In this document: piece by piece, positions 19,359-47,410 of the stretch
How the letters are laid out: each line of letters begins with the position of its first letter
Numbering within the stretch: the first letter of the stretch is position 1
From: Streptomyces coryli
GTDB taxonomy: Bacteria; Actinomycetota; Actinomycetes; Streptomycetales; Streptomycetaceae
Length of the DNA: 51,087 nucleotides
Assembly: GCF_011044975.1 (NCBI RefSeq)
Contig: NZ_JAAKZV010000029.1
Location: 1-51,087 of the forward strand
Direction: 5' to 3'
Notes under the pieces: model-generated
The model's database searches: none
What the model was told of the DNA's origin: nothing
Seen by the model: the letters and a program-made list of their open reading frames with translations, nothing else
Made by a program: the position numbers and the translations under genes

Positions 19359-20885
19359 ATGACCCATCCCAGACCTCGGTGGACCCGCATGGCCGCGGCG
19401 TCCACCGGGCTCGCTCTCACGGTCGCGCTCGGCTTCCTGCCGGGTTCGGCCTCCGCCGACGCGGCACGCGACGCGGAGGTGGCAGCCGCGGGCGCCAAGG
19501 CCGCCGGTGACACGCTGCCTTACCTCGTGAACGCCGACACCGACCGGGGCACCACAGCCCGGGTCACGAAGGCGATAGCCGCGGCGGACGGCAAGCTCGT
19601 GAAGGCCTATGAGCGCATAGGCGTGTTCATCGTCCACTCGGCCAACGCGGACTTCGCCAAGGAACTGCGCGGCGTCCGCGGTGTGGACTCGGCGGGCGCG
19701 GCCCGCACGGCACCGCTCAAGCCGGCCTGGACGGACGAGGACAAGGAGGGGGCACCGAAGCCGTATTCGCTCGCGGACGCCCCGAAGGCGGCCGCGGACC
19801 AGGAGCCACTGGAGCCCGAGCAGTGGGACCTGCGCGCCATCAAGTCCGACAAGGCGAACAAGATCAACCCGGGTAGCAAGAAGGTGACCGTCGGCGTCAT
19901 CGACACCGGTGTCGACGACACCCACCCGGACCTGGCGCCCAACTTCAGCAAGTCGCAGTCGGCGAACTGCGTCGGCGGCGTGGCTGATACGAGCGACGGG
20001 GCCTGGCGGCCGTACACCTCCGACGCCTACCACGGCACGCACGTGGCGGGCGAGGTCGCGGCGGCGCGTAACGGCGTCGGTGTGGCCGGTGTGGCGCCGG
20101 GCGTGAAGGTGGCGTCCATCAAGGTGTCCGAGCCGGACACCCAGCTGTTCTTCCCGGAGTCGGTGGTCTGCGCGTTCGTCTTCGCGGCCGACCACGGCAT
20201 CGAGATCACCAACAACAGCTATTACGTGGACCCGTGGCTCTACAACTGCAAGGACGACCCGGACCAGCGTGCCATCGTGGACGCGGTCGGCCGGGCCTCC
20301 GCGTACGCGCAGAAGAAGGGCCTGCTGAACGTCGCCTCGGCGGGTAACTCCAACCACGACCTCGACTCGGACGCGATCGTGGACGACTCCTCGCCGGACG
20401 ACACCACGCCGGTCGAGCGCACCATCGACCCGTCGGAGTGCTGGGACATCCCGACCCAGCTGCCGGGCGTGGCGACGGTGTCCGCGACCGGTGTCCAGGA
20501 CCTGAAGTCGTACTACTCCACGTACGGCAAGGGCTGGGTCGACGTGGCGGCGCCGGGTGGCGACAAGTACCAGATCCCGGACAACCCGTCGAAGAACGGC
20601 CGCATCCTGTCGACCATGCCTGACGGCGCGTACGCGTGGCTGCAGGGCACGTCGATGGCGGCACCGCACGTCTCCGGCGTGGCCGCGCTGCTGAAGTCGA
20701 CGCACCCGTATGCCAACGGTGCGCAGCTGCAGCAGCTGCTCAAGGCGCAGGCCGACAACCCGGGCTGCCCGGAGTTCTACGACCCGGACGGCAATGGTGT
20801 CGAGGACTCCACCTGCGAAGGGTCGAAGAGGTCGAACGGCTTCTACGGCAAGGGCATCGTGGACGCGCTGGACGCGGTGCGCTGA
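19359..20885 (+). CDS. Secreted S8 (subtilisin-like) serine protease
   Basis: 508 residues. A Sec signal peptide is at 1-34 (TGLALTVALGFLPGSASADA). An inhibitor-like propeptide follows (DTLPYLVNADTDRG...VFIVHSANADFAKEL). The triad is complete: Asp182 in VIDTGVD, His225 in HGTHVAGE, Ser432 in GTSMAAPHV, with oxyanion Asn in SAGNSNHD. No C-terminal anchor. GGAG precedes the ATG. An extracellular protease for nutrition or processing. The last 43 nt overlap the lysoplasmalogenase gene tail-to-tail. Confidence 0.95.
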   Translation: MTHPRPRWTRMAAASTGLALTVALGFLPGSASADAARDAEVAAAGAKAAGDTLPYLVNADTDRGTTARVTKAIAAADGKLVKAYERIGVFIVHSANADFAKELRGVRGVDSAGAARTAPLKPAWTDEDKEGAPKPYSLADAPKAAADQEPLEPEQWDLRAIKSDKANKINPGSKKVTVGVIDTGVDDTHPDLAPNFSKSQSANCVGGVADTSDGAWRPYTSDAYHGTHVAGEVAAARNGVGVAGVAPGVKVASIKVSEPDTQLFFPESVVCAFVFAADHGIEITNNSYYVDPWLYNCKDDPDQRAIVDAVGRASAYAQKKGLLNVASAGNSNHDLDSDAIVDDSSPDDTTPVERTIDPSECWDIPTQLPGVATVSATGVQDLKSYYSTYGKGWVDVAAPGGDKYQIPDNPSKNGRILSTMPDGAYAWLQGTSMAAPHVSGVAALLKSTHPYANGAQLQQLLKAQADNPGCPEFYDPDGNGVEDSTCEGSKRSNGFYGKGIVDALDAVR

Positions 20886-21496
20886 TCCGCCGGGCCGCCC
20901 GGTAGCAGGCCTGTGACGAGCAGGTACTGGGCGGCCAGGTAGGTCGACATCACCAAGAACCCGGCCGCCGGCGGCTGCGGCCAGTCGGCGAGCCGGGTCG
21001 CGATGAGGGTGTCGGAGAGGAGAAAGAGCGCCCCTCCGGCACCCGCTCGCGTTCCGGCCCCGCTCGCCCGCCAGGCCATGGCGGCGAGCAGCAGGCTGTA
21101 CGCGGCGACCGGGCCGCGCAATGCCGGGTCGAGGCCCGGCCAGAGCGCCGCGAGGGTGGCCGCCCAGACGGCGGCGTACGCGATCGCGGCCACGCGGTGC
21201 GGGCGGTGGCCGCGGGCCCTGAACAGCGCCAGATAGCAGACGTGTCCGGCCGCGAAGGCGCCCATTCCGGCGAGGAACGCCGGGCCGCCGATCTGCAGCA
21301 GCACGTCTCCTGCGGCGCCGCAGAGCAGCGCGGCGATGAGCAGCCGCGGCCCGCCACGGAGCGCCGCGTATACGGCCAGCAGCGGCATGAGCAGGGGCTT
21401 GGTGGCGTACTCGAGCGGCTGCAGGCCGAAGAGCAGGGCGGCGAGGTGCAGCGCGGATACGGCGGTGAAGGCGCGCAGCGCCAGGCGGCTGTTCAC
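20843..21496 (-). CDS. YhhN/TMEM86-family lysoplasmalogenase-like membrane protein
   Basis: 217 residues, about eight hydrophobic helices. The segments PLEYATKPLLMPLLAVY, CGAAGDVLLQIGGPAFLAGMGAFAAGHVCYLALF (in adjoining parts), FLLSDTLIAT and STYLAAQYLLVTGLL match the YhhN/lysoplasmalogenase family, including its KP, GD and SD residues. The human relative TMEM86B cleaves the vinyl-ether bond of lysoplasmalogen. GTG at 21494-21496 overlaps the stop of the sterol-desaturase-like gene (GTGA), so the two are translationally coupled. Activity in bacteria is inferred. Confidence 0.82.
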   Translation of the reverse strand: MNSRLALRAFTAVSALHLAALLFGLQPLEYATKPLLMPLLAVYAALRGGPRLLIAALLCGAAGDVLLQIGGPAFLAGMGAFAAGHVCYLALFRARGHRPHRVAAIAYAAVWAATLAALWPGLDPALRGPVAAYSLLLAAMAWRASGAGTRAGAGGALFLLSDTLIATRLADWPQPPAAGFLVMSTYLAAQYLLVTGLLPGGPADQRTASSASTMPLP

Positions 21497-22383
21497 CGGG
21501 GCTGCGGGTCCGGCTCCGGCGCGGGTGCCGGACGGGCCGTAGCGGGTGATGCGGCCGACGGCTGCCAGCCTGGGCCGCGGAAGACCCGGGCCGCGCGTTC
21601 CCGCCAGTCCCCGGCCGCCCGCACATCCCGCGCGATCGCCGCGTACTCGTGCGTCGCCACCCGGAGCGGGTTGAACGTCGTGATGTTCTTCGTCAGGCCG
21701 TAGGCGCACGGCTCCCGCTCCGGTTCGAAGGAGCCGAAGAGCCGGTCCCAGACGATCAGGATGCCGCCGAAGTTGCGGTCCAGGTAGTTGCCTTGCGAGG
21801 CGTGGTGGACGCGGTGGTGGGACGGGGTGTTGAGGACGTACTCGACCGGCCGTGGCAGCCGGCCGATGCGCTCGGTGTGGATCCAGAACTGGTAGACGAG
21901 GTTCACCGACGAGCAGAACGCCAGCGCCGCCGGGTGCACGCCGCACAGGATCATCGGCAGGTAGAACGGCCAGGACGTCGCCGAGGTCCAGGGCTGCCGC
22001 AGGGCGGTCGAGAGGTTGAACTTCCGGCTGGAGTGGTGCACCACATGGGAGGCCCACAGCAGCCGGACGACGTGGTGGCCGCGGTGCGACCAGTAGTAGC
22101 AGAAGTCCTGCGCGAGCAGCGTCAGCAGCAGCGCCCACCACACCACCGGGACGCGCAGCGGCGTCAGCTCGTAGACGGCCGCGTAGACCGCGACGACCGG
22201 GATCTTCCACAGCAGGTCGGTGAAGATGCTGCCGAGGCCCATCGTCATCGATGTGACCGCGTCCTTGGTCTCGTAGCCCGCCGCTTCCTCGTCCGGGTGC
22301 AGCCGGTAGCTGATCACCTCGGCGAGGGTGAGGACGAGGAAGGCCGGGATGGACCACAGCACCACATCGGGCAGGTCAGGCAT
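21493..22383 (-). CDS. Sterol desaturase/fatty acid hydroxylase superfamily protein
   Basis: 296 residues, membrane-embedded di-iron oxygenase family. Histidine boxes: H100-x3-H104 (SHRGHH), H113-x2-HH (HVVHHS), H169 (WIHT), H190-x2-HH (HHRVHH). NYLDRNFGGILIVWDRLFGSF is typical of the branch containing alkylglycerol monooxygenase. It probably hydroxylates a lipid chain or ether lipid, using O2. Immediately coupled to a lysoplasmalogenase-like gene, which suggests ether-lipid chemistry. Confidence 0.88.
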   Translation of the reverse strand: MPDLPDVVLWSIPAFLVLTLAEVISYRLHPDEEAAGYETKDAVTSMTMGLGSIFTDLLWKIPVVAVYAAVYELTPLRVPVVWWALLLTLLAQDFCYYWSHRGHHVVRLLWASHVVHHSSRKFNLSTALRQPWTSATSWPFYLPMILCGVHPAALAFCSSVNLVYQFWIHTERIGRLPRPVEYVLNTPSHHRVHHASQGNYLDRNFGGILIVWDRLFGSFEPEREPCAYGLTKNITTFNPLRVATHEYAAIARDVRAAGDWRERAARVFRGPGWQPSAASPATARPAPAPEPDPQPR

Positions 22384-22416: not shown

Positions 22417-24108
22417 CTAGGCGCGGGAGCGGGCCAGTTCCGCCGGCTGCTTGCGGATGAAGGCCGTGCGCAGGGCGTGGTACGGGGAGTCCGCGGCGTA
22501 GAAGTTGCGCCACATCCGGGCGAGTTCGCCGGAGCGGTACCACTCCAGTGGCTTGATCGACTCGTCCCGCTCCCGCCGCCGCCGCTTCTCGCGCAGCCGC
22601 GCCGCCAGATGCCGGGAGGCCGCGACCGTCTGCGCCAGCTCGGCCGCCGCTGACCGGAACTCCTCGGGCCCTGCCGGGAGTACGTGATCGACCAGGCCCA
22701 GGTGCCGCGCCCGGCTGGCGCTCACCGGCACCGCGTCGTCGGTCAGCAGGTGCGCCTGCTCCCAGCCGACCCGGCGGGGCAGCGTGTACGTCCAGTACTC
22801 GGACCCGTACAGGCCCATCCGCCGGTAGTGCGGGTTCAGTATCACGCCCTGCCGGCACCACACTTCGTCGGCCGCGAGCGCGAACATCACGCCGCCGGCC
22901 GCCGCATTGCCGCCGAGCGCGGCGACGGTGAGCCGGTCGGTGGTCTCCAGCACCGCCTTCACCACGTCGTTCATCGCGTTGATGTTGGCCCATGACTCCC
23001 CCGCCGGATCGTCCGCGGCCTCGATGGTGCCCAGGTGTATGCCGTTGGAGAAGAAGTCCCGTTCACCGCCGAGGACCAGCACCTTGGTGCGGCGGGTGAG
23101 CGCGTGCCGGTACGCGGCCAGCAGCCGGCGGCACTGGTCGGTGGACATCGCGCCCGCCGGGAAGGAGAAGCCGAGGACGCCGACGCGGCCGCCGGCGTGC
23201 TCGCGGTAGTGGATGTCGGTCCAGGTGCGGCGCCCGGCGGGGAGCGTGAGCGGCGCGGGGACGTGCGGCAGCAGCTGCGCCGTGGCACCGAGGGCTTTGG
23301 TGGCGGGCATCTTGAAGGTGGCGGGTCCTTCGGCCGTACGCCGCGGCCGCAGCTGCGTCAGCCACACCGCGCCGTCCGCCGTGGCCCGGCACACCGCGCC
23401 CGCGCGGCGGGCGAGTAGCCGCCCCGGCCGCCCGCGCAGCTCGTCCTCCGCGTGCCCGCCGTAGAGGAAGTACTCGCGCCCGCCGATCTCGTCGAGCACG
23501 CCGGGGAAGGAGTCGGCCGCGCGCAGCTTGCGCAGCACGGTCCGCGTGTCGTCGGCGGCCCAGTCGATGCGCCGCCGGTCCTGCCGGAAGTACGGGCGGG
23601 CCCGCCCGCGCACGTCGGGGCGGGTGTAGTCCAGCGGCTCCGGCACGTACCGGCCGGAGGCATAGCGCTCGACGGCCAGATGCACCGCCTGCAGCGCGGC
23701 GTCGGCGATCTCGCCCCGGTACAGGTCGCTCTTCGCCCGCGGCGGCAGTTCGCAGCCGACCGTGGCCCAGATGTCGCCGCCGTCCATCTCCTCGGCGGCC
23801 TGCAGCACGGTGACGCCCCACCGCCGCTCGCCGCCGTCGACGGCCCAGTCGAGCGCGGAGGGGCCGCGGTCGCCCATCGGGCCGGGGTGGACGATCAGGC
23901 AGACCCGGCGCTTGTAGACCTCAGCAGGAATGGCGGTCTTCAGCATCGGGGCGATGACGAGATGCGGGTCGTCCTGCTCGACCGCCCGGCTCAACGCGCT
24001 CTCGTCACCCGCCTCCCGGAACCGGACGAGGTGCCCGCGGTCGCCGAGTTCGGCCTCCACGCGCTGGGTGAGGGAGTTGTACGCGGTGGCGATCAACAGG
24101 ATGCGCAT
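22417..24108 (-). CDS. hypX: HypX-type fusion: formyl-THF transferase plus enoyl-CoA hydratase domain
   Basis: 563 residues. The N-terminal half is a formyltransferase (MRILLIATAYNSLTQRVEAE; HPGPMGDRGPSALDW; MDGGDIW). The C-terminal half is a crotonase fold (LVLGGERDFFSNGIHLGTIE, LGGNAAAGGVMFALAADEVW). This architecture is HypX/HoxX, which makes CO from formyl-tetrahydrofolate via formyl-CoA for the [NiFe]-hydrogenase active site under oxic conditions. No hydrogenase or other hyp gene lies in this window, so its client is distant or different. ATG 24108 follows GGAGAGG. Confidence 0.88.
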   Translation of the reverse strand: MRILLIATAYNSLTQRVEAELGDRGHLVRFREAGDESALSRAVEQDDPHLVIAPMLKTAIPAEVYKRRVCLIVHPGPMGDRGPSALDWAVDGGERRWGVTVLQAAEEMDGGDIWATVGCELPPRAKSDLYRGEIADAALQAVHLAVERYASGRYVPEPLDYTRPDVRGRARPYFRQDRRRIDWAADDTRTVLRKLRAADSFPGVLDEIGGREYFLYGGHAEDELRGRPGRLLARRAGAVCRATADGAVWLTQLRPRRTAEGPATFKMPATKALGATAQLLPHVPAPLTLPAGRRTWTDIHYREHAGGRVGVLGFSFPAGAMSTDQCRRLLAAYRHALTRRTKVLVLGGERDFFSNGIHLGTIEAADDPAGESWANINAMNDVVKAVLETTDRLTVAALGGNAAAGGVMFALAADEVWCRQGVILNPHYRRMGLYGSEYWTYTLPRRVGWEQAHLLTDDAVPVSASRARHLGLVDHVLPAGPEEFRSAAAELAQTVAASRHLAARLREKRRRRERDESIKPLEWYRSGELARMWRNFYAADSPYHALRTAFIRKQPAELARSRA

Positions 24109-24374: not shown

Positions 24375-26447
24375 ATGTCTTCTTCTCCGCTCGACCGCCG
24401 CCGCTTTCTGCAGCTGGCCGGCGGTACGGCCGCCTTCGCGGCGCTGGCCTCCAGCATCGACCGCGCGGCCGCGATCCCCGCCAAGCGCGTGGCGGGGGAC
24501 ATCTCGGATATCCAGCACATCGTGGTGCTGATGCAGGAGAACGAGTCCTTCGACCACTACCTCGGCCCGCTGAACGGCGTCCGCGGCTTCGGCGACCCGC
24601 GCCCGGTGACGCTGCCGTCGGGCAAGAGCGTGTGGCACCAGGCGGACGGCGGCGGCAAGGAGGTGCTGCCGTTCCGGCCCGCGGCGGACGACCTCGGGAT
24701 GAAGTACCTCCAGGGCCTCAACCACGACTGGGCGGGCGGCCAGGCGGCCTTCAACGACGGCGCGTACGACAACTGGATAGCCGCGAAGTCCCCGGCGACG
24801 ATGTCGTATCTGAACCGCTCCGACATCCCCTTCCACTACGCGCTCGCGGACAAGTTCACCATCTGCGACGCGTACCACTGCTCGTTCATCGGGGCCACGG
24901 ACCCGAACCGCTACTTCATGTTCGCCGGCAGCAACGGCCAGGACGGCACCGGTGGCGGCCCGGTGATGGGCAACGAGGAGGCGGGCTACGGCTGGACGAC
25001 CTACCCCGAGCGGCTGGAGAAGGCCGGGGTGTCGTGGAAGGTCTACCAGGACATCGGCGACGGCCTGGACGCGAACGGCAAGTGGGGCTGGATCGAGGAC
25101 GCCTTCCGCGGCAATTACGGCGACAACTCGCTGCTGTGGTTCAACAACTACCGCAACGCCAAGCCGGGCGACCCGCTCTTCGACAAGGCCCGTACCGGCA
25201 CCAACGCGAAGGCGGGCGAAGGCTACTTCGACCAGCTCAAGGCTGACGTCCAGGCCGGCAAGCTGCCGAAGATCTCGTATGTCGTCTCGCCCGAGGCCTT
25301 CAGCGAGCACGCCAACTGGCCGCCGAACTACGGCGCCTGGTACATCGCGCGGGTGCTGGACGCGCTGACCTCGAACCCGGAGGTCTGGTCGAAGACGGCC
25401 CTGTTCATCACGTACGACGAGAACGACGGCTTCTTCGACCACGTGGTGCCGCCGCACCCGCCGCTGGGCGAGGGGCGGGGCGCGTCGACGGCGGACGCCT
25501 CGAAGGACTACTACACGGGCGGGGTCTCGGGATACACCGCGAAGGGCCCGTTCGGCTTCGGCCCGCGGGTGCCGACCTTCGTCGTATCCCCGTGGTCGAC
25601 GGGCGGCTACGTCTGCTCGGAGACCTTCGACCACACCTCGCTCGTGCAGTTCATGGAGAAGCGCTTCGGGGTGGAGGAGCCGAACATCACGCCGTGGCGG
25701 CGGGCGGTGGCGGGCGACCTGACGTCGGCCTTCGACTTCTCGGTGAAGGTCACGGACCCGGCGGAACTCCCGCCGACGGACGCGTACGAGCCCCCGGACA
25801 AGAACCGCCACCCGGACTTCCCCTTCACGCCGCCGGCCGACCCGTCGATGCCGAAGCAGGAGGCGGGCAGCCGGCCGACGCGCCCGCTGCCGTACGCGCC
25901 GGTGGTGGACGCGGCGGTGGACACGGCGAAGGGCGCGGTGTCGCTGAGCTTCACGGGCGGCAGGAAGGCGGGCGCGTGCTTCTACGTGACGTCCGCCGGC
26001 TCGGCGAAGGCGCCGACGCGCACGTACACGACGGAGGCGGGCAAGACCCTGCGGGGGACGTGGAAGGCGTCGGGGCAGGGCGCGTACGACCTGTCGGCGT
26101 ACGGCCCGAACGGCACGCTGGCGCGCTTCAAGGGCGCGGCGAAGGTGAAGGGCGCGGAGGTGAAGGCGCGACACGACGCGTCTTCCGGGAACCTGAAGCT
26201 CACCTTCACGAACACGGGCTCCTCGGCTCACAGTCTGACGGTGGCGAACGCGTACGGCGGCGCGAAGGAGACCTTCACGGTGAAGCCGGGCGCGACGGTG
26301 GAGCACACGGTGGACCTGAGCGGCAGCAAGCGCTGGTACGACGTGTCGGTGACGTCGGCGGAGGACGCCGGGTGGCTGCGGCGCTTCGCGGGGCATGTGG
26401 AGACGGGGGCGAAGGGGGTCAGCGACCCGGCGCTGGCCACAAGCTGA
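24375..26447 (+). CDS. Tat-exported phosphocholine-type phospholipase C
   Basis: 690 residues. The Tat signal has DRRRFLQLAGGTAAFAALA at residues 7-25. The alkaline-phosphatase-like phosphoesterase domain follows (IVVLMQENESFDHYLGPL, FSEHANWPPNYGAWY, TALFITYDENDGFFDHV). The C-terminal ~190 residues hold two repeats of the DUF756-like beta domain found in actinobacterial non-hemolytic PLCs (KAPTRTYTTEAGKTLRGTW, ETFTVKPGATVEHTVDL). It hydrolyses phosphatidylcholine-type lipids outside the cell. An AGGAGG site lies 12 nt before the ATG. Confidence 0.93.
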   Translation: MSSSPLDRRRFLQLAGGTAAFAALASSIDRAAAIPAKRVAGDISDIQHIVVLMQENESFDHYLGPLNGVRGFGDPRPVTLPSGKSVWHQADGGGKEVLPFRPAADDLGMKYLQGLNHDWAGGQAAFNDGAYDNWIAAKSPATMSYLNRSDIPFHYALADKFTICDAYHCSFIGATDPNRYFMFAGSNGQDGTGGGPVMGNEEAGYGWTTYPERLEKAGVSWKVYQDIGDGLDANGKWGWIEDAFRGNYGDNSLLWFNNYRNAKPGDPLFDKARTGTNAKAGEGYFDQLKADVQAGKLPKISYVVSPEAFSEHANWPPNYGAWYIARVLDALTSNPEVWSKTALFITYDENDGFFDHVVPPHPPLGEGRGASTADASKDYYTGGVSGYTAKGPFGFGPRVPTFVVSPWSTGGYVCSETFDHTSLVQFMEKRFGVEEPNITPWRRAVAGDLTSAFDFSVKVTDPAELPPTDAYEPPDKNRHPDFPFTPPADPSMPKQEAGSRPTRPLPYAPVVDAAVDTAKGAVSLSFTGGRKAGACFYVTSAGSAKAPTRTYTTEAGKTLRGTWKASGQGAYDLSAYGPNGTLARFKGAAKVKGAEVKARHDASSGNLKLTFTNTGSSAHSLTVANAYGGAKETFTVKPGATVEHTVDLSGSKRWYDVSVTSAEDAGWLRRFAGHVETGAKGVSDPALATS

Positions 26448-26484: not shown

Positions 26485-26496
26485 TAGAGTACGGAC
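26485..26496 (+). promoter_or_regulatory. Putative -10 element and leaderless start of the NACHT gene
   Basis: TAGAGT (26485-26490) is followed by 6 nt and the ATG at 26497, with no ribosome site; this suggests a leaderless mRNA. The 49-nt gap after the phospholipase stop also has the short tandem GATGGGCT GATGGGCT. Confidence 0.4.
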
Positions 26497-29400
26497 ATGA
26501 CGGGGACAATCGAGGCCGTACTTGCGCGAGTTGCCGCCACCGTGGCCGGCTCCGCGGCGAAGGCGGTGCTGCGGCCGAAGCGGCCGGGAGCCGGTCTGGT
26601 GACCGCTCCCGGCCGTGCCGCGTTACCGGGGCGGCAGGCGGCGCGGCTCGGGGAGAAAGAGCTGGGGCGGCTGGTCGACGACCTGGCGGGACGGCTGCGG
26701 CGAGCGTGTGCCGCCGGGCCGTACGCGGAGCTGCCGGAGGCGGAACGGCTGGCGGCGGTGGAGGCGGTGCGGGATGCCTTCCAGGGACTTGCGGGCCTCG
26801 ATGAGCTGATGGCGCTCGATCTGGATGCGGAGGCGCTGGCGTCGCGGGTGGGGCGGCCGGTGGCCGGGCTCAGTCCGGCGGCTGAGTCGCTGCGGGGCGA
26901 GCTGCTGGCGCTGTGCTGCCGGCATGCGGTGGAGATCGCCACCGCGCTGCCGTCGTTCGGGCCGCGCGCGGATGTGGAGTTGATCCGGCGGAGCGGGGAG
27001 GCGCAGCGCGCGCTGGAGGAGATCCGCGAGCGGCTGCCGGGGGACGGCGCGGGGGCAGGGCTTGCCTTCGAGCAACGCTACGCGGAGTACGTCGCGGAGA
27101 CGTACGCGCGAGTGGAGCTCTTCGGGCTGACGCTGGGCCGTACGAGCACGGACCTGGCCCTGGATACGGCTTACATCAGCCTCGCGGTGAGCGGGGCCGA
27201 GGCGGAACTGGGGCACCGGGAAGGGCCCCACGGCTTCGGACGGCCGGCGATCCGGGTGGAGGAGGCGCTGGCAGACGGACAACGGCTGTTGCTGCGCGGT
27301 CCGGCGGGGTCGGGCAAGAGCACGCTGATGCAGTGGCTCGCGGTGAACACGGCCCGGCGGCGCTTCGCCGGACGGCTGGCGGAGTGGAACCGCTGCGTGC
27401 CGTTCGTGCTGCGACTACGGGAGATCAACGCCAGAGGCGGCGAGCTGCCGATGCCGGAGGACTTCATGACGGCGGCCCGGGTGCCCATGGGTGGGGCCGC
27501 GCCGGACGGGTGGGCACAGGATCTGCTCGAGGCTGGCCGGGCGTTGGTGCTTATCGACGGCGTCGACGAGATTCCGGAGCGGATGCGCAAGCAGACGCGG
27601 GACTGGCTGAAGGGGCTGGTGACCGCCTTTCCCGGTGCACGTTACGTGGTCACCACCCGGCCGTCGGCGGTCCCGGAGGACTGGCTGGCGACGCTGGGCT
27701 TCGAAGCGCACTCGCTGCTGCCGATGGAGCGGGAGGGCGTGGCCGAATTCATCGCGCACTGGCATGCCGCGGCACAGTTGGAGTGCGAGGACGAGGCCCT
27801 GGCGCAGTACGAACAGAGCTTGAAGGAAGCCGTGACCACGCGCCGGGACCTGGGCCGGCTCGCCACAAATCCGCTGATGTGCGCACTGCTGTGCGCCCTG
27901 AACCGGGACCGCAGGATGTACCTGCCACGGGCCCGCATGGAGCTGTACGACGCGGCGCTGGACATGCTGCTGATCCGCCGGGACACGGAGCGTCAGGTCA
28001 GCGGGACCGAGGGGGTGGAGCTCGGGCGCAGCGAGCAGTTGCTGTTGCTCCGGCGGCTGGCGTACTGGCTGATCCGTAACGATCAGGACGAGGCGGAGCA
28101 ATCCGAGGCCGTGGAGATGGTCGCGGAGTGGCTGACCGCGATGCCGCAACTGGCGGGCTCCGCGGAACCGGAGAAGGTCTTCCGGCATCTGCTGATACGC
28201 AGCGGGCTGCTGCGCGAGCCGTCTCCGGGTGTCGTGGACTTCGTGCACCGTACCTTCAAGGACTACCTGGGCGCGGCGGCCGCGGTGGAGGCGCGGGACT
28301 TCGGCGTGCTCGTGCGACACGCGCATGACGACAAGTGGGACGACGTGGTGCGGATGGCCGTCGGGCATGCGCGGCCGGACGAGCGGGTGCGGGTGCTGCG
28401 AGGGCTGCTGCGGCGGGCGGACAAGGTGAAGCGGCATCGGCAGCGGCTGGTGCTGCTGGCGGCGGCGTGCTTGGAGTACGCGCTGGAGGTGGATCCGGCG
28501 GTGCGGGACGAGGTGGAACGGCGGACCAGGGAGCTGCTGCCGCCGTACAACCCGGAGGAGGCGGAAGAGCTCGCGAAGATCGGCCCGCTGGTACTGGAGC
28601 TGCTGCCCGATCCGGCTCAGCTTGATGAGTGGGCGGCTTCTGCGTGCGTTCGCTGTGCCGCGTCCATTGGCGGTGACGCCGCGTTGGCGTGGATCCGGCG
28701 AGTGCCGCTCGGGCCACGCGGCGTGGTGGAAGGCACCATCGGGGAGGCATGGCGCTCTTTCCCCGCCGCGGAGTACGCGGACGTTGTGCTGCTGAATACC
28801 TCGCAGGAAGAGTCCTGGGTCGCGGTGCACACGCGCGAACAGTTGGAACAGCTCCCGCGACTGCCGCATCACACCCGTCCCACCATCTACGGATGCCCGC
28901 TTGACCTGCCGGACGACCTGCACCTCCTGAGACATGTACGCACGCTCGGACTGTTCGGCACACCAGGTGTCAGTGACCTGCAGGCCTTCCGTCCCCTGCC
29001 CGAACTGCGGGAACTCGCTCTCCAAAACCTCGAGGAAATCGAGAGCTTGGAGCCGCTTCGTGGGTCGTCACTGGAAGCGCTGTACCTGTACGGCCTGCGC
29101 CGTGACCTCGACCTCTCACCCCTAGCCGATCTGCCCGAGCTGACGTCCTTCTGCATCGATACGCCGGTTCCCGGTGACAGCCTCGACGGATTGCCGCTGA
29201 ATCCGGGGCTCACGCAGCTTGGCCTGTACGAGCAGGCAGGTAACGCCGACCTCTCCGGGGTCGACCGCTGGCCGGGGCTTACCACCATGACTCTGAGCGG
29301 GCCACACCAGTACGATCAGATCCGGCTGCTCAGTCGCCTGCCCGAGCTCAAGTGGCTGAACCTGCGCGAGCAAGAGACTCCGGACCTACGCGCACTGACA

Positions 29401-29643
29401 CCCTGTCAGCATCTCGAGACTCTGATCGCGATTGACGTTCAGGAAGTGCTGTATCTGGAAGCCCTGCGGGACATGCCGAATCTCACGTTCGTAAGTCTCG
29501 GGGGACCCACCCCCTTGGACCTATCCCCGCTCGCTGACCTGGATCACCTCACCATCTCGGTCGGCCGCAAAACCCCCTTTACCGGCGCCGACCGCATCCC
29601 CCGGGAGCGGTTCACCCTGCCGGCCAGGCGCCCGGCAGGGTGA
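26497..29643 (+). CDS. NACHT-domain NTPase with leucine-rich repeats (NLR-like, defence candidate)
   Basis: 1048 residues. Residues 1-~230 are helical, resembling a NACHT N-terminal helical (NNH) domain. The NACHT ATPase has Walker A GPAGSGKST (268-276), Walker B ALVLIDGVDEIPE (from 349) and VVTTRPSA sensor. A helical winged region follows (RDLGRLATNPLMCALLCAL, VDFVHRTFKDYLGA). From ~796 to the end lie irregular leucine-rich repeats (VRTLGLFGTPGVSDLQAF, LRELALQNLEEIESLEPL). Bacterial NACHT proteins include antiphage NLR-like systems. There is a TTA leucine codon at 26623-26625 (codon 43). The C-terminal third is visibly less GC-rich at third positions than the N-terminal part. No separate effector gene is adjacent. 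Confidence 0.93.
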   Translation: MTGTIEAVLARVAATVAGSAAKAVLRPKRPGAGLVTAPGRAALPGRQAARLGEKELGRLVDDLAGRLRRACAAGPYAELPEAERLAAVEAVRDAFQGLAGLDELMALDLDAEALASRVGRPVAGLSPAAESLRGELLALCCRHAVEIATALPSFGPRADVELIRRSGEAQRALEEIRERLPGDGAGAGLAFEQRYAEYVAETYARVELFGLTLGRTSTDLALDTAYISLAVSGAEAELGHREGPHGFGRPAIRVEEALADGQRLLLRGPAGSGKSTLMQWLAVNTARRRFAGRLAEWNRCVPFVLRLREINARGGELPMPEDFMTAARVPMGGAAPDGWAQDLLEAGRALVLIDGVDEIPERMRKQTRDWLKGLVTAFPGARYVVTTRPSAVPEDWLATLGFEAHSLLPMEREGVAEFIAHWHAAAQLECEDEALAQYEQSLKEAVTTRRDLGRLATNPLMCALLCALNRDRRMYLPRARMELYDAALDMLLIRRDTERQVSGTEGVELGRSEQLLLLRRLAYWLIRNDQDEAEQSEAVEMVAEWLTAMPQLAGSAEPEKVFRHLLIRSGLLREPSPGVVDFVHRTFKDYLGAAAAVEARDFGVLVRHAHDDKWDDVVRMAVGHARPDERVRVLRGLLRRADKVKRHRQRLVLLAAACLEYALEVDPAVRDEVERRTRELLPPYNPEEAEELAKIGPLVLELLPDPAQLDEWAASACVRCAASIGGDAALAWIRRVPLGPRGVVEGTIGEAWRSFPAAEYADVVLLNTSQEESWVAVHTREQLEQLPRLPHHTRPTIYGCPLDLPDDLHLLRHVRTLGLFGTPGVSDLQAFRPLPELRELALQNLEEIESLEPLRGSSLEALYLYGLRRDLDLSPLADLPELTSFCIDTPVPGDSLDGLPLNPGLTQLGLYEQAGNADLSGVDRWPGLTTMTLSGPHQYDQIRLLSRLPELKWLNLREQETPDLRALTPCQHLETLIAIDVQEVLYLEALRDMPNLTFVSLGGPTPLDLSPLADLDHLTISVGRKTPFTGADRIPRERFTLPARRPAG

Positions 29644-29647
29644 ACCG
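29608..29647. terminator. Perfect 16-bp bidirectional terminator
   Basis: CGGTTCACCCTGCCGG (29608-29623) and its exact complement CCGGCAGGGTGAACCG (29632-29647) flank an 8-nt loop. The TGA of the NACHT gene (29641-29643) is inside the right arm, and the convergent amidohydrolase stop is at 29656. It insulates the two transcripts. Confidence 0.88.
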
Positions 29648-29655
29648 CCGCCTGT

Positions 29656-30897
29656 TCACCAGACGCGCACCTTCCCGCCCGGCGCGAAGACCGGGCTCGT
29701 GGCGTCCGCCGGCGGGGTCTCCAATGGCACCGCCAATTCCTCGTACGTAGGGCCGGACTTGGCCGCGATCCCGTCCAGATACGCCAAGTCGAAGCCGTAC
29801 ACCCGAGCCGCATTCCCCGCCGCCATCGCGCGCAGCTCATTGCGCGGGACGTCCGCATACGCGATCCGCAGGCCCTCCCGCGAATACGGGTACGTCCCCT
29901 CGTCATGCGGATAGTCACTGCCCCACATGATCTTGTCGATCCCGATCCGATCCCGCAGCGGCACCTCATGCGGCCGCATGAAGCTGGCCCCCACGAAGCA
30001 GTTCTCCCGCCACACCTCCGAAGGCGGGTTCCCCATCATCGCCGCCAGCCCCGCGCCGAATTTCGACTCCGCCGTCGAAGCCTTTGACGCCGCCGCGACC
30101 AGCCGCGAGTGGTAGTAGTCCAGCATGTCCAGGACACCCGGTATCCACCCCGAGCCCTGCTCGGTCAGCACCAGCTTCAGCTCGGGATGCTTCCGGAAGA
30201 CGCCGCCGAAGATCAGGTGCCACAGCGCCCGGTGCGAGAACCACGTCGTCTCCACCATGAACACCGCCCGAGCCGCAGGCTCAGTCGCGTCCAGCGGCGG
30301 TGACGCCGACCCCGCGTGGTGGTTCACCGGCACGCCCAGCTCCGCGCACACCGCCCACAGCGGGTCGTACGCAGACGAGTACAGCTCCGGCAGCCCGGAA
30401 CCCGGCGGCGTCCCCGGCAGCAGGATGCCGCCCGTCAGGCCCGCCTCCTTCGCCCAGCGGACTTCCTTTACCGCCTCCTCCACGTCGTTCAGCAGGATCT
30501 GCGCCACCCCGGCCCGACGCCCCGGCGCCGCCGCGCAGAAGTCCGCCAGCCAGCGATTGTGCGCTCGCAGCCCGGCCCACCGCTGCGCGAATTCCTCCCG
30601 CGTCGGCGCCGGCGCCATCAGCGACGCGCTAGGAAAGAACGGCGGGATCGTATTCGGGAAGACCACTTCCGCGACGATCCCGTCCTCCTCCAGCTCCGCC
30701 AGCCGCCGCGCCGAGTTCCAGTTCTTGTCGGCCGTGTCGGCGAGCAGATCCTCGTACGGATTCACATACGTCGCCGCCCATGCGTCGAAGGCGGCGTGGT
30801 GCTTCGACTCCAAGTACGGCTTGTAGTCCAGCAGATCGGCGCCCGCGTGGCAGTCCGCCGAGATCACGGTGCAGCGGTCCGTAGCAGCGATGGTCAT
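29656..30897 (-). CDS. Amidohydrolase-2 family (ACMSD-like) metal-dependent hydrolase 1
   Basis: 413 residues. TIM-barrel amidohydrolase-2 type: N-terminal VISADCHAGADLLDYKPYL, central GVPVNHHAGSASPP, HPELKLVLTEQGSGWIPGVL, and C-terminal IMWGSDYPHDEGTYPYSREG with the metal Asp. This family includes decarboxylases of the ACMSD group and hydrolases acting on C-C or C-N bonds. The start overlaps the stop of the second amidohydrolase by 4 nt. Last gene of the four-gene operon driven from near 33900. Confidence 0.9.
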   Translation of the reverse strand: MTIAATDRCTVISADCHAGADLLDYKPYLESKHHAAFDAWAATYVNPYEDLLADTADKNWNSARRLAELEEDGIVAEVVFPNTIPPFFPSASLMAPAPTREEFAQRWAGLRAHNRWLADFCAAAPGRRAGVAQILLNDVEEAVKEVRWAKEAGLTGGILLPGTPPGSGLPELYSSAYDPLWAVCAELGVPVNHHAGSASPPLDATEPAARAVFMVETTWFSHRALWHLIFGGVFRKHPELKLVLTEQGSGWIPGVLDMLDYYHSRLVAAASKASTAESKFGAGLAAMMGNPPSEVWRENCFVGASFMRPHEVPLRDRIGIDKIMWGSDYPHDEGTYPYSREGLRIAYADVPRNELRAMAAGNAARVYGFDLAYLDGIAAKSGPTYEELAVPLETPPADATSPVFAPGGKVRVW

Positions 30898-34719: not shown

Positions 34720-37281
34720 ATGTCGACGCTGCACGCGGTGCTGCTGCGCCACGCCGGCACCGTCCATCTGCACCACACGCCCGCCCCCGGGCCGTACGAG
34801 CCGAACGCCAACGGGCTCGTCGCCCTGGAGGCGGAGCTGCTCGACCGCAACGCCGCGCTCTCCGCCCCGCTGCGGGACGCGCTGGCGCGCCTGCGCCCGA
34901 AGGACCTCGCCGCCACCGGCGCCCGGCTCCTGAAGGACCTCGACCGCGAACTCGGCGCCGACCGCACCCACATGCCGCTCTTCCGCCGCTTCCCGCGCTC
35001 GACACCGCGCGACACGCAGGCGCTGTACGTGGACCGGGTCTTCGCGCTGCTGCTGCAGCAGCAGCGGCAGCCGTGCGTGCTCTGCGGCACGGTCGGCTCG
35101 GTGCACCCGGTCGCCCCCTGCGCGCACCTGGTGTGCCGCGGCTGCTTCGACGGCTCCGATTACACCGGCTGCCCGGTCTGCCGGGTCCGCATCACCCCCG
35201 GCGACCCCTTCCTGCAGCCGTCGCGTACGGACGGCACCCCGCCCGCCCGCACGGCGGCCGGCCCGCTGCGCCTGCTCACCCTCGGCGCCGACCGCGCGAC
35301 CGACGCGGCGCGGACCCTCGCCCGGCTGCTCGCCCGCCGCACCCCGCTGTCGCCGCAGGACCGCGACGACCTGCGGGTGCTGCTCGAGCACGCGCCGCCG
35401 GACGACCTCGGCTGGCTGCCGGAGGACATTCCGGTACGCGAGACCAAGGCCCTGGTCCTCGGCCTGCTGCTGCTCGACGAGCGCAGCCGGGAGGCGCTGA
35501 CGGCCCGGCTGCCGGGCCTGCTGACCACCGCCACCGACGTGCTGCGGCTGCTCGCCGTGTGGTCCGGCGGCGAGGCGGACCTGCTGGCGCCGCCCCGCTT
35601 CAAGAGCCTGCCGCGCCCGCTGCGCCGCACGCTCCTCGCCGTACTCGACGGCCTCGCGCCTGCGCTGGTGGCCGAGGACCTGCGGCGCCACCCGCGCACG
35701 TGGAAGCACGCGGCCGAGCCGCTGCACCCGTACGAGCACGCGGCCCGCTTCCCGCGGGCGGCGCTGGCGTTCGCGGTCCTGCGGGAGACGCGCCTCGCGG
35801 AACTGCCGCACGCGGAGCCGCACATCGCTGGTCAGCGCGACCTGCGCGTGGACGAGCACGGCCGGATCCGGACCGCGGGCTTCGCGCCCCAGATCGAGCA
35901 GGCCCTGGCCGCCGGGGACACCGACCGGGCGACCGCGCTCCTGGCCAAGCGGCCGGGAGAGCTGGTCCGCCGCCTCGACCACCTGCTGCGGCTGTCGGGT
36001 GAGCCGCCCGCGCCGCTGCTCGCCGCGCTCCAGTCGGCGCTGCCCAAGGCGGGTGCAGGACCGCTGCTTTCGGCATACGGGGCGCTGCGGAACCGTCATC
36101 TCCCGCCCCACCGCCGGGTGTTCTTCCCGCGCGGCCAGCTCGCCCGCTCGTACGCGACCGACGACCATCGCCCGCCGCTGCCCGAGCAGACCACCGCGCG
36201 GATCTGCGGCCTGCTCGAGGGCGAGATCCTGCGCCGCCTGGCGGCCGCCCCGCGGCACGACACCGCCGTGCTCGACGCCGGCCTCGCCCGCCTGGCGGCG
36301 CCGTTCGCCGAGCGGACGGCGTCCCCGGCGCTGGTCGCGGTCCCGCGCGGCAGCACGCAGCAGCTGCCGGACGGCGATGTCGTGCGGCTGTTCCTGCACT
36401 GGACGGAGCCCAAGGGCACCCGGGTGGACCTCGACCTGTCGGTGGCGTTCTACGACCAGGCCTGGAAGTTCGCCGGGCTGTGCGACTACACCGACATGCG
36501 CTACCTCGACACGGCCGCGATCCACTCCGGCGACCTCACCTCGGCGCCCGCGCCGGAAGGGGCGACGGAGTACGTCGACCTCGACCTGCGGCAGCTCGCC
36601 GACGCCGGCGCGCGGTACGCGGTCGTGCTCGTCTTCGCGTACAACGACGTGCCGTTCGAGGACCTCCAGGACGCCTTCGCGGGCTTCATGGAGCTGCCGG
36701 ACGCCGAGCGCCGGGACAGCGCGTTCCACCCGCGCGCCGTGCGGCAGCGCTTCGACCTCACGGGTGAGTCGCGGGTGTGCGCGCCGATGGTGCTGGACCT
36801 GGACCAGCGCAGCGCGCTGTGGACGGACATCCACCTGTCGGCGGCCGGCGGTTTCCACAACGTCGACCGGCACCACCCGGTGCTCGGCCGCCTGGGGCAC
36901 GACCTGACCACGTACTTCACCGGCGGCGGCCGGGTGTCGATGTGGGACCTGGCGTGCTGGCACGCGGCGGCGCGCAGCGACGAGGTCACGGTGCTGGGAC
37001 CGCGCGGGACCGACGAGGCGTGGACGTACCACCGCGAAGAGGGACAGCCGATCGCGGACTTCGCCGCCCGGGTGCGCGGCCTGGAGCGGCCGGACCAGCG
37101 GCAACTGGACATCTGGGCGGACTCGTTCGCGTCCGGCCGGGACGCCCTGCTGCTCCTGGTCGACGGGACGCTCGAGCCGCGGGGCGCGAAGGGCGAGGTG
37201 TACCGCCTCTACCCGGGCCCGGTGGACGGCTGCGGCCTGGACCGGCTGGCGGCAAGCGACCTGCTCACGGCGCTGGGCTGA
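34720..37281 (+). CDS. MXAN_6230/SCO0854-family RING-domain protein with TerD-like domain
   Basis: 853 residues. A canonical C3HC4 RING finger has Cys119, 122, 134, His136, Cys139, 142, 151, 154. A long helical, Leu/Arg-rich middle follows (~200-540). The C-terminal part from ~547 resembles TerD (VRLFLHWTEPKGTRVDLDLS, IHSGDLTSAPAPEGATEYVD, YAVVLVFAYNDVPFEDLQDA). RING domains are ubiquitin-ligase or scaffold modules in eukaryotes; TerD proteins bind calcium and belong to tellurite/stress systems. A multi-domain stress or signalling protein is likely; function is not established. It stands alone as a monocistronic gene. Confidence 0.88.
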   Translation: MSTLHAVLLRHAGTVHLHHTPAPGPYEPNANGLVALEAELLDRNAALSAPLRDALARLRPKDLAATGARLLKDLDRELGADRTHMPLFRRFPRSTPRDTQALYVDRVFALLLQQQRQPCVLCGTVGSVHPVAPCAHLVCRGCFDGSDYTGCPVCRVRITPGDPFLQPSRTDGTPPARTAAGPLRLLTLGADRATDAARTLARLLARRTPLSPQDRDDLRVLLEHAPPDDLGWLPEDIPVRETKALVLGLLLLDERSREALTARLPGLLTTATDVLRLLAVWSGGEADLLAPPRFKSLPRPLRRTLLAVLDGLAPALVAEDLRRHPRTWKHAAEPLHPYEHAARFPRAALAFAVLRETRLAELPHAEPHIAGQRDLRVDEHGRIRTAGFAPQIEQALAAGDTDRATALLAKRPGELVRRLDHLLRLSGEPPAPLLAALQSALPKAGAGPLLSAYGALRNRHLPPHRRVFFPRGQLARSYATDDHRPPLPEQTTARICGLLEGEILRRLAAAPRHDTAVLDAGLARLAAPFAERTASPALVAVPRGSTQQLPDGDVVRLFLHWTEPKGTRVDLDLSVAFYDQAWKFAGLCDYTDMRYLDTAAIHSGDLTSAPAPEGATEYVDLDLRQLADAGARYAVVLVFAYNDVPFEDLQDAFAGFMELPDAERRDSAFHPRAVRQRFDLTGESRVCAPMVLDLDQRSALWTDIHLSAAGGFHNVDRHHPVLGRLGHDLTTYFTGGGRVSMWDLACWHAAARSDEVTVLGPRGTDEAWTYHREEGQPIADFAARVRGLERPDQRQLDIWADSFASGRDALLLLVDGTLEPRGAKGEVYRLYPGPVDGCGLDRLAASDLLTALG

Positions 37282-37315: not shown

Positions 37316-38215
37316 TCACGCCGCCGACGGCAGGTCGTGCCGCCGGGCCAGTTCGAGTACGCCCCGCAGCGCCGGCTCCGCCGGGCCGGGGCCCGGGCGG
37401 ATGAGCGCCTGGACGGCGATCGGCTCGGGCTGGGTGACGAGGTCGAGCTGGACCAGGTCGCCGTCGGCCAGTTCGCGGACGACGGTGAGATACGGCAGCA
37501 GCGCCACCCCGTGGCCGTGTGCGGCGAGCCGGCGCAGCGCGCCGAACGAGCCGGTGACCATGGCAATATGGGCCCGCTCCATCAGGTCGTCGCCGTACCG
37601 GTCGAAGAGCATGTGCGAGGTGCAGCCGAGCTCGGCGACGAGGAAGTCGTGGGCGAGCAGGTCCTCGTCCGTAACGGACGGCTTTCCGGCCAGGGGGTGG
37701 GTCGGGCCGGTGACCAGCACCACCCGCTCGTGGGCGACGACATCCTCGCGGCCGGGGGCAGGCCTGCCGTTGTCGAAGACGAAGACCAGGTCGAGGCGGC
37801 CGGCGTCGAGGTCGTCGTAGAGCCGGCTGCGCGGGCCCACGGCGAGGCTGACCTCGGCGCGCGCGTCGTCGCCCGCCGCGCCGTTGCCGAGAGCGGTGAC
37901 GATCTCCGGCAGCCACTCGCTCGCGAGGGTCTCCAGCGCCCCGATGCGCAGCCGCGGCCGCTCGTCGGCGGCGGCGCGGCACATTAAGTCGTCGAGTTCC
38001 AGGGCCTGACGGGCGTACGGCAGCACGCGGCGGCCCGCGTCGGTGAGGGGCGCGCCGGTGCTGGTACGGGTGAGCAGGCGCGCGCCGAGCTCGCTCTCCA
38101 GGCGGCGCAACTGGGCGCTCAGGCTGGACTGGGCGTAGCCGAGGTGCTCGGCGGCGGCGGAGATCCCGCCGCGCTCGGCGACGGCTATGAAGGCCCGCAG
38201 ATAGCGTGAGTCCAT
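37316..38215 (-). CDS. LysR-family transcriptional regulator (contains TTA codon)
   Basis: 299 residues. N-terminal HTH ([42 protein letters not shown]), then a periplasmic-binding-like effector domain ([18 protein letters not shown]). Codon 77 is TTA (37985-37987), so translation should need the bldA tRNA. Divergent from an MFS exporter with a LysR box between; probably activates the exporter in response to its substrate. Confidence 0.93.
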
Positions 38216-47191: not shown

Positions 47192-47410
47192 TCAGGCCGA
47201 AGCCTTCTTGCCCCTTGTCGCACCGCCACGACCGCGCAGGGTCACGCCGGATTCGCTCAGCATCCGATGCACGAATCCGTAGGAGCGGCCGGTCTCTTCG
47301 GCCAGCGCCCGGATGCTCGCACCGGAGTCGTACTTCTTCTTCAGGTCTGCCGCGAGCTTTTCGCGCGCGGCGCCGGTAACCCGGCTGCCCTTCTTCAGAG
47401 TCTCGGCCAC
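47192..47410 (-). CDS. gbn: Gbn-like small helix-turn-helix nucleoid-associated protein
   Basis: 72 residues, MAETLKKGSRVTGAAREKLA followed by DLKKKYDSGASIRALAEETG (a helix-turn-helix) and YGFVHRMLSESGVTLRGRGG, ending ATRGKKASA. Highly basic. From memory this matches the Streptomyces GATC-binding nucleoid protein Gbn (SCO1839), which affects sporulation and antibiotic production. GTG 47410 has GGAGG 6 nt upstream. Upstream lies a TTGCCG/GATAAA promoter and a dense GATC cluster. Confidence 0.8.
   Translation of the reverse strand: MAETLKKGSRVTGAAREKLAADLKKKYDSGASIRALAEETGRSYGFVHRMLSESGVTLRGRGGATRGKKASA

Follow-up and report, generated by a model that had tools for sequence, protein, structure and literature searches.

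The architecture of bacterial proteins that join a NACHT NTPase to leucine-rich repeats (LRR) is already known, and genes gated by TTA, a rare leucine codon efficiently read in Streptomyces only late in development, are a classic topic. Such bacterial NACHT-LRR proteins have been termed bona fide bacterial NLRs (PMC12169576). In adpA and other frequently TTA-containing Streptomyces genes the codon recurs in orthologues, and its presence in at least five other genomes, a level that the authors declare arbitrary, was taken as a sign of adaptive value (PMC4255298). The Streptomyces extracellular contractile injection systems (eCIS) are likewise tied to bldA through TTA: these many-gene, phage-tail-like particles promote developmental cell death, and a TTA gene, often a regulator, is found in 42 of 56 eCIS regions (PMC10020575). 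The present work concerns a NACHT-LRR gene in which the TTA lies inside the receptor gene itself. It is located in a 51,087-nt stretch of Streptomyces coryli DNA (contig NZ_JAAKZV010000029.1, hereafter the window). We claim as new an NLR-type receptor family that occupies a shared chromosomal site and carries recurrent, partly conserved TTA codons. As with adpA, the TTA recurs in orthologues, although in the NACHT family its position shifts between lineages. No report joining NACHT with bldA and a TTA codon was found in the literature searched, nor any printed report of recurrent TTA codons in a NACHT-LRR family; the TTA-gene table of PMC4255298, which is centred on S. coelicolor and includes several genes whose function is unknown, names no NACHT protein. 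Among the few papers that link bldA and TTA to phage resistance or defence systems, one is concerned with the TTA genes of a phage (PMC13350457).

The gene and its parts are as follows.

26497..29643, + strand: gene for the NNH1-NACHT-LRR protein, ATG start, 1048 amino acids
26524..27027, + strand: NNH1 (NACHT N-terminal helical domain 1), residues 10-177 (Pfam, E 5.9e-30, above cut-off)
26623..26625, + strand: TTA, codon 43, the sole TTA of the gene, read directly
27283..27771, + strand: NACHT NTPase domain, residues 263-425 (Pfam PF05729, E 5.6e-24, above cut-off)
27772..28881, + strand: NACHT-associated helical region, residues 426-795, inside the span aligned with NLRC4, NLRP3 and NOD2
28882..29616, + strand: leucine-rich repeats, residues 796-1040, presumed sensor (profile against LRR proteins of the PDB)

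A sequence-only reading of the window had proposed an NLR-like layout with an intact NACHT ATPase and an in-frame TTA at codon 43, and all of this was borne out. NNH1 and NACHT were recognized by Pfam, while the LRR was recognized by comparison with solved structures: all Pfam LRR models fell below cut-off on the window protein, residues 824-1019 matched internalin A (phmmer, E 1.1e-9), and a family profile matched solved LRR proteins with an E value of 1.8e-27. The Walker A (GPAGSGKST, residues 268-276) and Walker B (LVLIDGVDE, residues 350-358) motifs showed no variation in their key residues across 46 aligned sequences, indicating an intact NACHT. The structure search agreed, since the predicted fold of residues 184-1043 matched the NACHT, helical region and LRR of the animal proteins NLRC4, NLRP3 and NOD2 over about 600-700 residues. 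The full-length root-mean-square deviation was nevertheless high, identity was 15-20%, and the N-terminal domain of the window protein had no match. Animal NLRs bear CARD or PYD effectors. The antiphage bNACHT proteins have a comparable tripartite layout with a central NACHT, but the window protein begins with NNH1 where bNACHT25 has a nuclease, and ends in LRR where other bNACHT proteins have NCH1 or SNaCT (PMC12169576). Further differences are the shared chromosomal site and frequent TTA codons of the window family. Within this family, residues 426-600 were the most conserved stretch measured (mean pairwise identity 0.80, against 0.58 for residues 601-795), and the LRR was the least conserved region (0.36).

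A first scan for homologues with the single protein gave no match; a scan with an alignment then gave matches, and the best 80 loci among those listed were retained. In 49 of these 80, nearly all from Streptomyces (L009-L057), the protein was 47-54% identical to that of the window over most or all of its length. Among 150 genomes drawn from the genus, 105 had a match at E ≤ 1e-100 and 23 had one at E ≤ 1e-240. Neighbours of the window gene, identified through the Pfam families of the window, were found on at least one side of the NACHT gene in 44 of the 49 loci, the five without them being L010, L012, L049, L051 and L053. On the left the markers were the S8 protease, YhhN and sterol-desaturase family genes, and on the right either the amidohydrolase-SDR-ADC genes or an exonuclease gene. 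Three of them are placed in the window as follows.

19389-20885, + strand: S8 protease gene, part of the conserved left flank (PADLOC subtilase, 1.3e-20; general subtilase family in Pfam)
21493..22383, - strand: fatty-acid hydroxylase / sterol-desaturase family gene (PF04116), conserved left neighbour, on the same side in 38 of the 49 loci
29656..30897, - strand: amidohydrolase gene (PF04909), convergent right neighbour marking the site

Empty sites, defined by a sterol-desaturase gene adjoining the amidohydrolase gene or one gene off, were surveyed in the 30 best amidohydrolase loci from 392 genomes searched. The NACHT gene was present in 6 and the site empty in 16, the remaining 8 being undecidable with flanks of 1.5 kb. 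Given the shared neighbours in 44 of 49 loci and the empty sites, the NACHT gene is a positional orthologue whose presence is patchy. In the window specifically, two additional genes (22417-24108 and 24375-26447) separate the left marker from the NACHT gene. The first (- strand) codes for a 563-residue formyltransferase-like and enoyl-CoA hydratase-like fusion and shares this interval with a phospholipase C gene.

At least one TTA was present in 38 of 62 family genes (about 50% identity), amounting to 53 of 9719 leucine codons. Besides the window gene, this set comprised 47 of the 49 loci, L001 (a copy on a plasmid) and another 13 sequences. Left out were L041, L055, L107 and L108, which had no start near the expected place, and L109, whose start was misplaced; L091, a truncated gene of 574 codons, was kept. 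The start codon of each homologue was assigned by rule, and genes in the loci and chromosome arms were called by an in-house script. As background, 59 stretches of chromosome arm, each of 20 kb, were processed by a gene caller neutral to TTA (mixed model). There, TTA was found in 40 of 989 genes (43 of 34355 leucine codons), in 5 of the 96 genes of at least 600 amino acids and, among these, in 2 of the 45 whose G+C content at third codon positions (GC3) was 0.84-0.93. Two other TTA-neutral models gave 37/986 and 40/987 genes. These values replace the first background rates (3/495 and 5/303 genes; TTA/TTG 0.015), which came from a caller whose codon model penalized TTA. As a check independent of the choice of the best 80 loci, the 23 homologues of the 150-genome draw were inspected, and 17 contained TTA. 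Two of these, L009 and L050, were already at hand and both carry it; of the 21 fetched, 15 did so: L107, L108 and 13 of the 19 whose start fell close to where it was expected. Seven of the 23 belonged to the first set, and among the 16 new ones TTA was present in 11. One Streptomyces genome carrying a homologue contains a tRNA-Leu(UAA) gene (L197). In the window, the only other TTA gene among those called codes for a LysR-type regulator (37316-38215, - strand; TTA at codon 77).

The excess might reflect relaxed avoidance of TTA: if the gene is accessory and dispensable, and it does not matter whether young mycelium expresses it, the codon could arise by drift and have no regulatory role. Several observations fit this account and weigh against a developmental use of the codon. 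Family GC3 was below that of the neighbours (0.90 versus 0.94; 0.84 in the window copy), and the family TTA/TTG ratio (0.102) was close to the A/G-ending ratios of several other codon boxes (GTA/GTG, 0.116 in the family and 0.118 in the arms; AAA/AAG, 0.102 and 0.111), as expected in the absence of avoidance. Composition alone therefore shows only that the usual avoidance has been lost. More distant paralogues (about 40% identity) also contained TTA, in 10 of 31 cases. The background rates rose on rechecking with the TTA-neutral caller, which weakened the contrast and slightly raised the standing of relaxed avoidance, while slightly lowering that of the developmental reading and of its more far-reaching version (both below). 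The TTA of the window gene is private, being found at codon 43 in no homologue examined, so the gating proposed by the sequence-only reading has the support of a recurring TTA in the family, although not of its own codon in the orthologues. Under the refuting condition set in that reading, absence of the TTA from most orthologues, the particular codon fails, while a TTA at some position of the gene is present in 38 of 62. Gating by TTA is not absolute, TTA genes being expressible without the bldA tRNA under some conditions (PMC4932002); the earlier statement that translation would be confined to aerial growth was too strong. Relaxed avoidance accounts for part of the excess. That it accounts for all of it we consider rather unlikely, since GC3-matched arm genes, with similar other A/G ratios, had a TTA/TTG ratio of only 0.040 (24 TTA in 18196 leucine codons, against 53 in 9719 for the family).

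The case for a positive use of TTA comes from its position and persistence, not from composition. Within codons 2-15 of the family genes, 18 of 143 leucine codons were TTA, compared with 35 of 9576 elsewhere. An early bias of TTA in Streptomyces genes has already been described (PMC4255298), and the arm genes showed it too, although more weakly (11 of 1299 early leucine codons versus 32 of the other 33056); the stronger clustering in the family speaks against relaxed avoidance. Separate lineages had their early TTA at codon 6, 8 or 9, and on several lineages the TTAs accumulated within codons 6-13. In L107-L109 each TTA lay about 13-15 codons past the likely start; counting from an extrapolated start would give that of L108 the number 43. 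On a 48-row tree obtained by a quick method, a minimum of 7 changes was needed between rows labelled 'early' and rows labelled 'no TTA', with at least 6 forced by well-supported branches; this count leaves out 15 rows with a later TTA only. The early-TTA label was clustered on the tree (5 of 500 shuffles were as low), so that close relatives repeat one event, and since rows are related by descent, raw Fisher values are not to be read as probabilities. Persistence was clearest in a divergent 13-member clade (protein identity 59-77%; third-base identity 0.557 at conserved fourfold sites), 9 members of which have TTA at codon 9. The chance that another member of this clade shares a rare codon was 0.60 for TTA, 0.12 for TTG, 0.008 for CTT and 0 for CTA, with a single TTG column (168) common to 7 members. 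Drift under relaxed avoidance would not predict that TTA is kept while CTA and CTT hardly, and TTG rarely, persist. We read the codon-9 TTA as being under selection in this clade, and the family pattern suggests selection for bldA-linked expression.

The concentration of TTA toward the 5′ end would also be expected if an early UUA served as a slow codon, keeping a toxic receptor scarce at all stages with no developmental timing. NLR overexpression is indeed often toxic. We find this quite improbable, however, as other rare leucine codons were seldom retained at codon 9 in the 13-member clade and many TTAs lie far downstream (34 of the 53 past codon 100).

The reading we prefer, to which we give slightly less than an even chance, is that the gene codes for an NLR-type STAND receptor whose translation is coupled to development through UUA and bldA, with death or arrest as its likely output. 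The divergent LRR array would sense a ligand; as the fold and motifs suggest, ligand binding would release the NACHT switch and the protein would oligomerize. The NNH1 helical domain would then act as effector, the most plausible outcome being that the infected or stressed hyphal compartment dies or is arrested. The sensor would most likely act through abortive infection or programmed hyphal death. The mRNAs of the positional orthologues often bear the rare UUA, repeatedly in the first 13 codons, and full translation would therefore wait for the bldA tRNA, so that the dose of receptor would be coupled to the vegetative-to-aerial switch and to antibiotic production. The window copy, with its own TTA at codon 43, fits this family habit. 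The codon pattern thus hints at a receptor made mainly once the colony matures. A more far-reaching version we hold as doubtful: the bldA switch that commits the colony to aerial growth would at the same time arm a receptor of inflammasome type, kept or lost at a single chromosomal site and fully translated only once the bldA tRNA appears, so that development would license innate immunity or hyphal self-destruction, and TTAs, often early ones, would have been gained repeatedly to keep the coupling.

The same machinery could respond to a self signal rather than to phage, causing programmed hyphal death at the vegetative-to-aerial switch. Such a developmental death receptor overlaps in mechanism with the developmentally coupled receptor preferred above; the trigger differs. 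The bldA-linked eCIS offer a precedent (PMC10020575). The gene occupies a shared chromosomal site, the scanned window genes belong mostly to metabolic, transport or protease Pfam families, and nine of ten neighbouring window proteins tested gave no PADLOC match. Patchy presence (23 of 150 genomes) and a divergent LRR fit an arms race better, and for these reasons immunity is weighed above developmental death, although not strongly; we regard a purely developmental trigger as unlikely. Mature mycelium of Streptomyces (S. venezuelae) is less susceptible to phage (PMC10117723).

The gene had also been called a probable defence sensor, a role that is inferred: the window protein had no match at E ≤ 1e-3 in PADLOC (PADLOC-DB 2.0.0). 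That it represents a catalogued antiphage system under another name was already disfavoured and is very improbable. Its STAND/NACHT design is that of the bNACHT proteins (PMC12169576), and there are weak matches to Iet components, IetA for one of 46 family members and IetS for the S8 protease of the locus. Nonetheless, the 46 members gave only two mad8 matches besides that of IetA (best E 3.4e-4), and the NCBIfam EruA model matched the window protein weakly, far below cut-off. The S8 protease, the only one of the ten neighbours with a PADLOC match, is probably a general subtilase; its gene is not adjacent to the NACHT gene in the window, and in L144 it adjoins the amidohydrolase gene where no NACHT gene was called. 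The pairing of weak IetS and IetA matches is worth attention in its own right.

Two further elements flank the coding sequence.

26485..26490, + strand: TAGAGT, a -10-like hexamer 6 nt before the start codon
29607..29648, no strand assigned: perfect 17-bp inverted repeat with an 8-nt loop, putative bidirectional terminator lacking a T-run

The start codon is backed by the homologues, which start at the same position or a few codons off. A Shine-Dalgarno-like run (GGAG, GAGG, AGGA or GGGG) was absent before the window ATG and present in 47 of 48 homologues; conversely, TANNNT at the upstream position of the hexamer was seen in none of the 48. The start of the window gene therefore looks leaderless-type, as had been proposed, although no consensus sigma-70 promoter was found upstream of it. 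At the other end, a 'perfect terminator' had been announced. The repeat is indeed perfect (arms 29607-29623 and 29632-29648), spans the stop codon between the convergent genes and folds at -43 kcal/mol (z -4.24), but it has no T-run and was not listed by a simple terminator scan.

Relatives on plasmids were found in 71 records at E ≤ 1e-5, 6 of which cover 80% of the query. In the plasmid copy L001, which belongs to the NNH1 type, a second open reading frame (ORF) holds the C-terminal part. A mobile or viral origin was rejected: no relative on a viral contig was confirmed, two weak Vibrio phage matches being the only ones, and the plasmid relatives were set aside because the site of the window gene is common to the chromosomal loci. 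Some Streptomyces plasmids carry, immediately upstream of the NACHT gene, a small divergent ORF of 210-213 bases, a possible partner or regulator:

L002, 1946-2155: small divergent ORF, helix-turn-helix (HTH) by Pfam
L003, 2371-2580: small divergent ORF
L005, 2366-2578: small divergent ORF, HTH by Pfam
L006, 2384-2596: small divergent ORF

The plasmid-borne NACHT genes of L005 and L006 contain five and six TTA codons, respectively, with codons 16 and 78 in both. On an S. jietaisiensis plasmid (L008, 1967-5625), a Trypco2 gene adjoins a trypsin-like NACHT gene.

Elsewhere in the window, an 853-residue protein (34720-37281, + strand) contains a prokaryotic RING finger (Prok-RING_4, E 1.4e-17, residues 119-164) and gave no PADLOC match; genes matching it were found near the NACHT loci L020, L026, L038, L041 and L044. 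A 72-residue HTH_58 protein is encoded at 47192-47410 (- strand), and we presume that it may belong to the family of the nucleoid protein Gbn/SCO1839.

The idea that a phage-supplied tRNA-Leu(UAA) switches on the TTA gene at infection was dropped as unsupported after one similarity search and the inspection of a single phage. Used as query, the tRNA-Leu(UAA) gene of L197 had only 5 matches at E ≤ 1e-5 among 50,697 phage records (two Brevundimonas phages, two Acinetobacter phages and one further phage). In a 49.9-kb stretch of Streptomyces phage Jay2Jay (L198, 50000-99900), ARAGORN found 36 tRNA genes and a tmRNA, none of them a tRNA for UUA; leucine was served only by two tRNAs with a UAG anticodon. 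In the other direction, phage CW39 is reported to have nine TTA genes and an infection phenotype that depends on solid medium, which suggests that phages can meet bldA-active hyphae (PMC13350457).

If the preferred reading is correct, an immune-type receptor would join the genes tied to bldA, and bacterial NLR-type immunity would come under developmental translational control. This would provide one candidate mechanism for the lower phage susceptibility of mature mycelium (PMC10117723). The shared site, with its clear empty alleles, allows a practical comparison of related strains, and bldA mutants and the recoding of a single codon would give a genetic handle on the timing of a death-dealing receptor in a multicellular bacterium.

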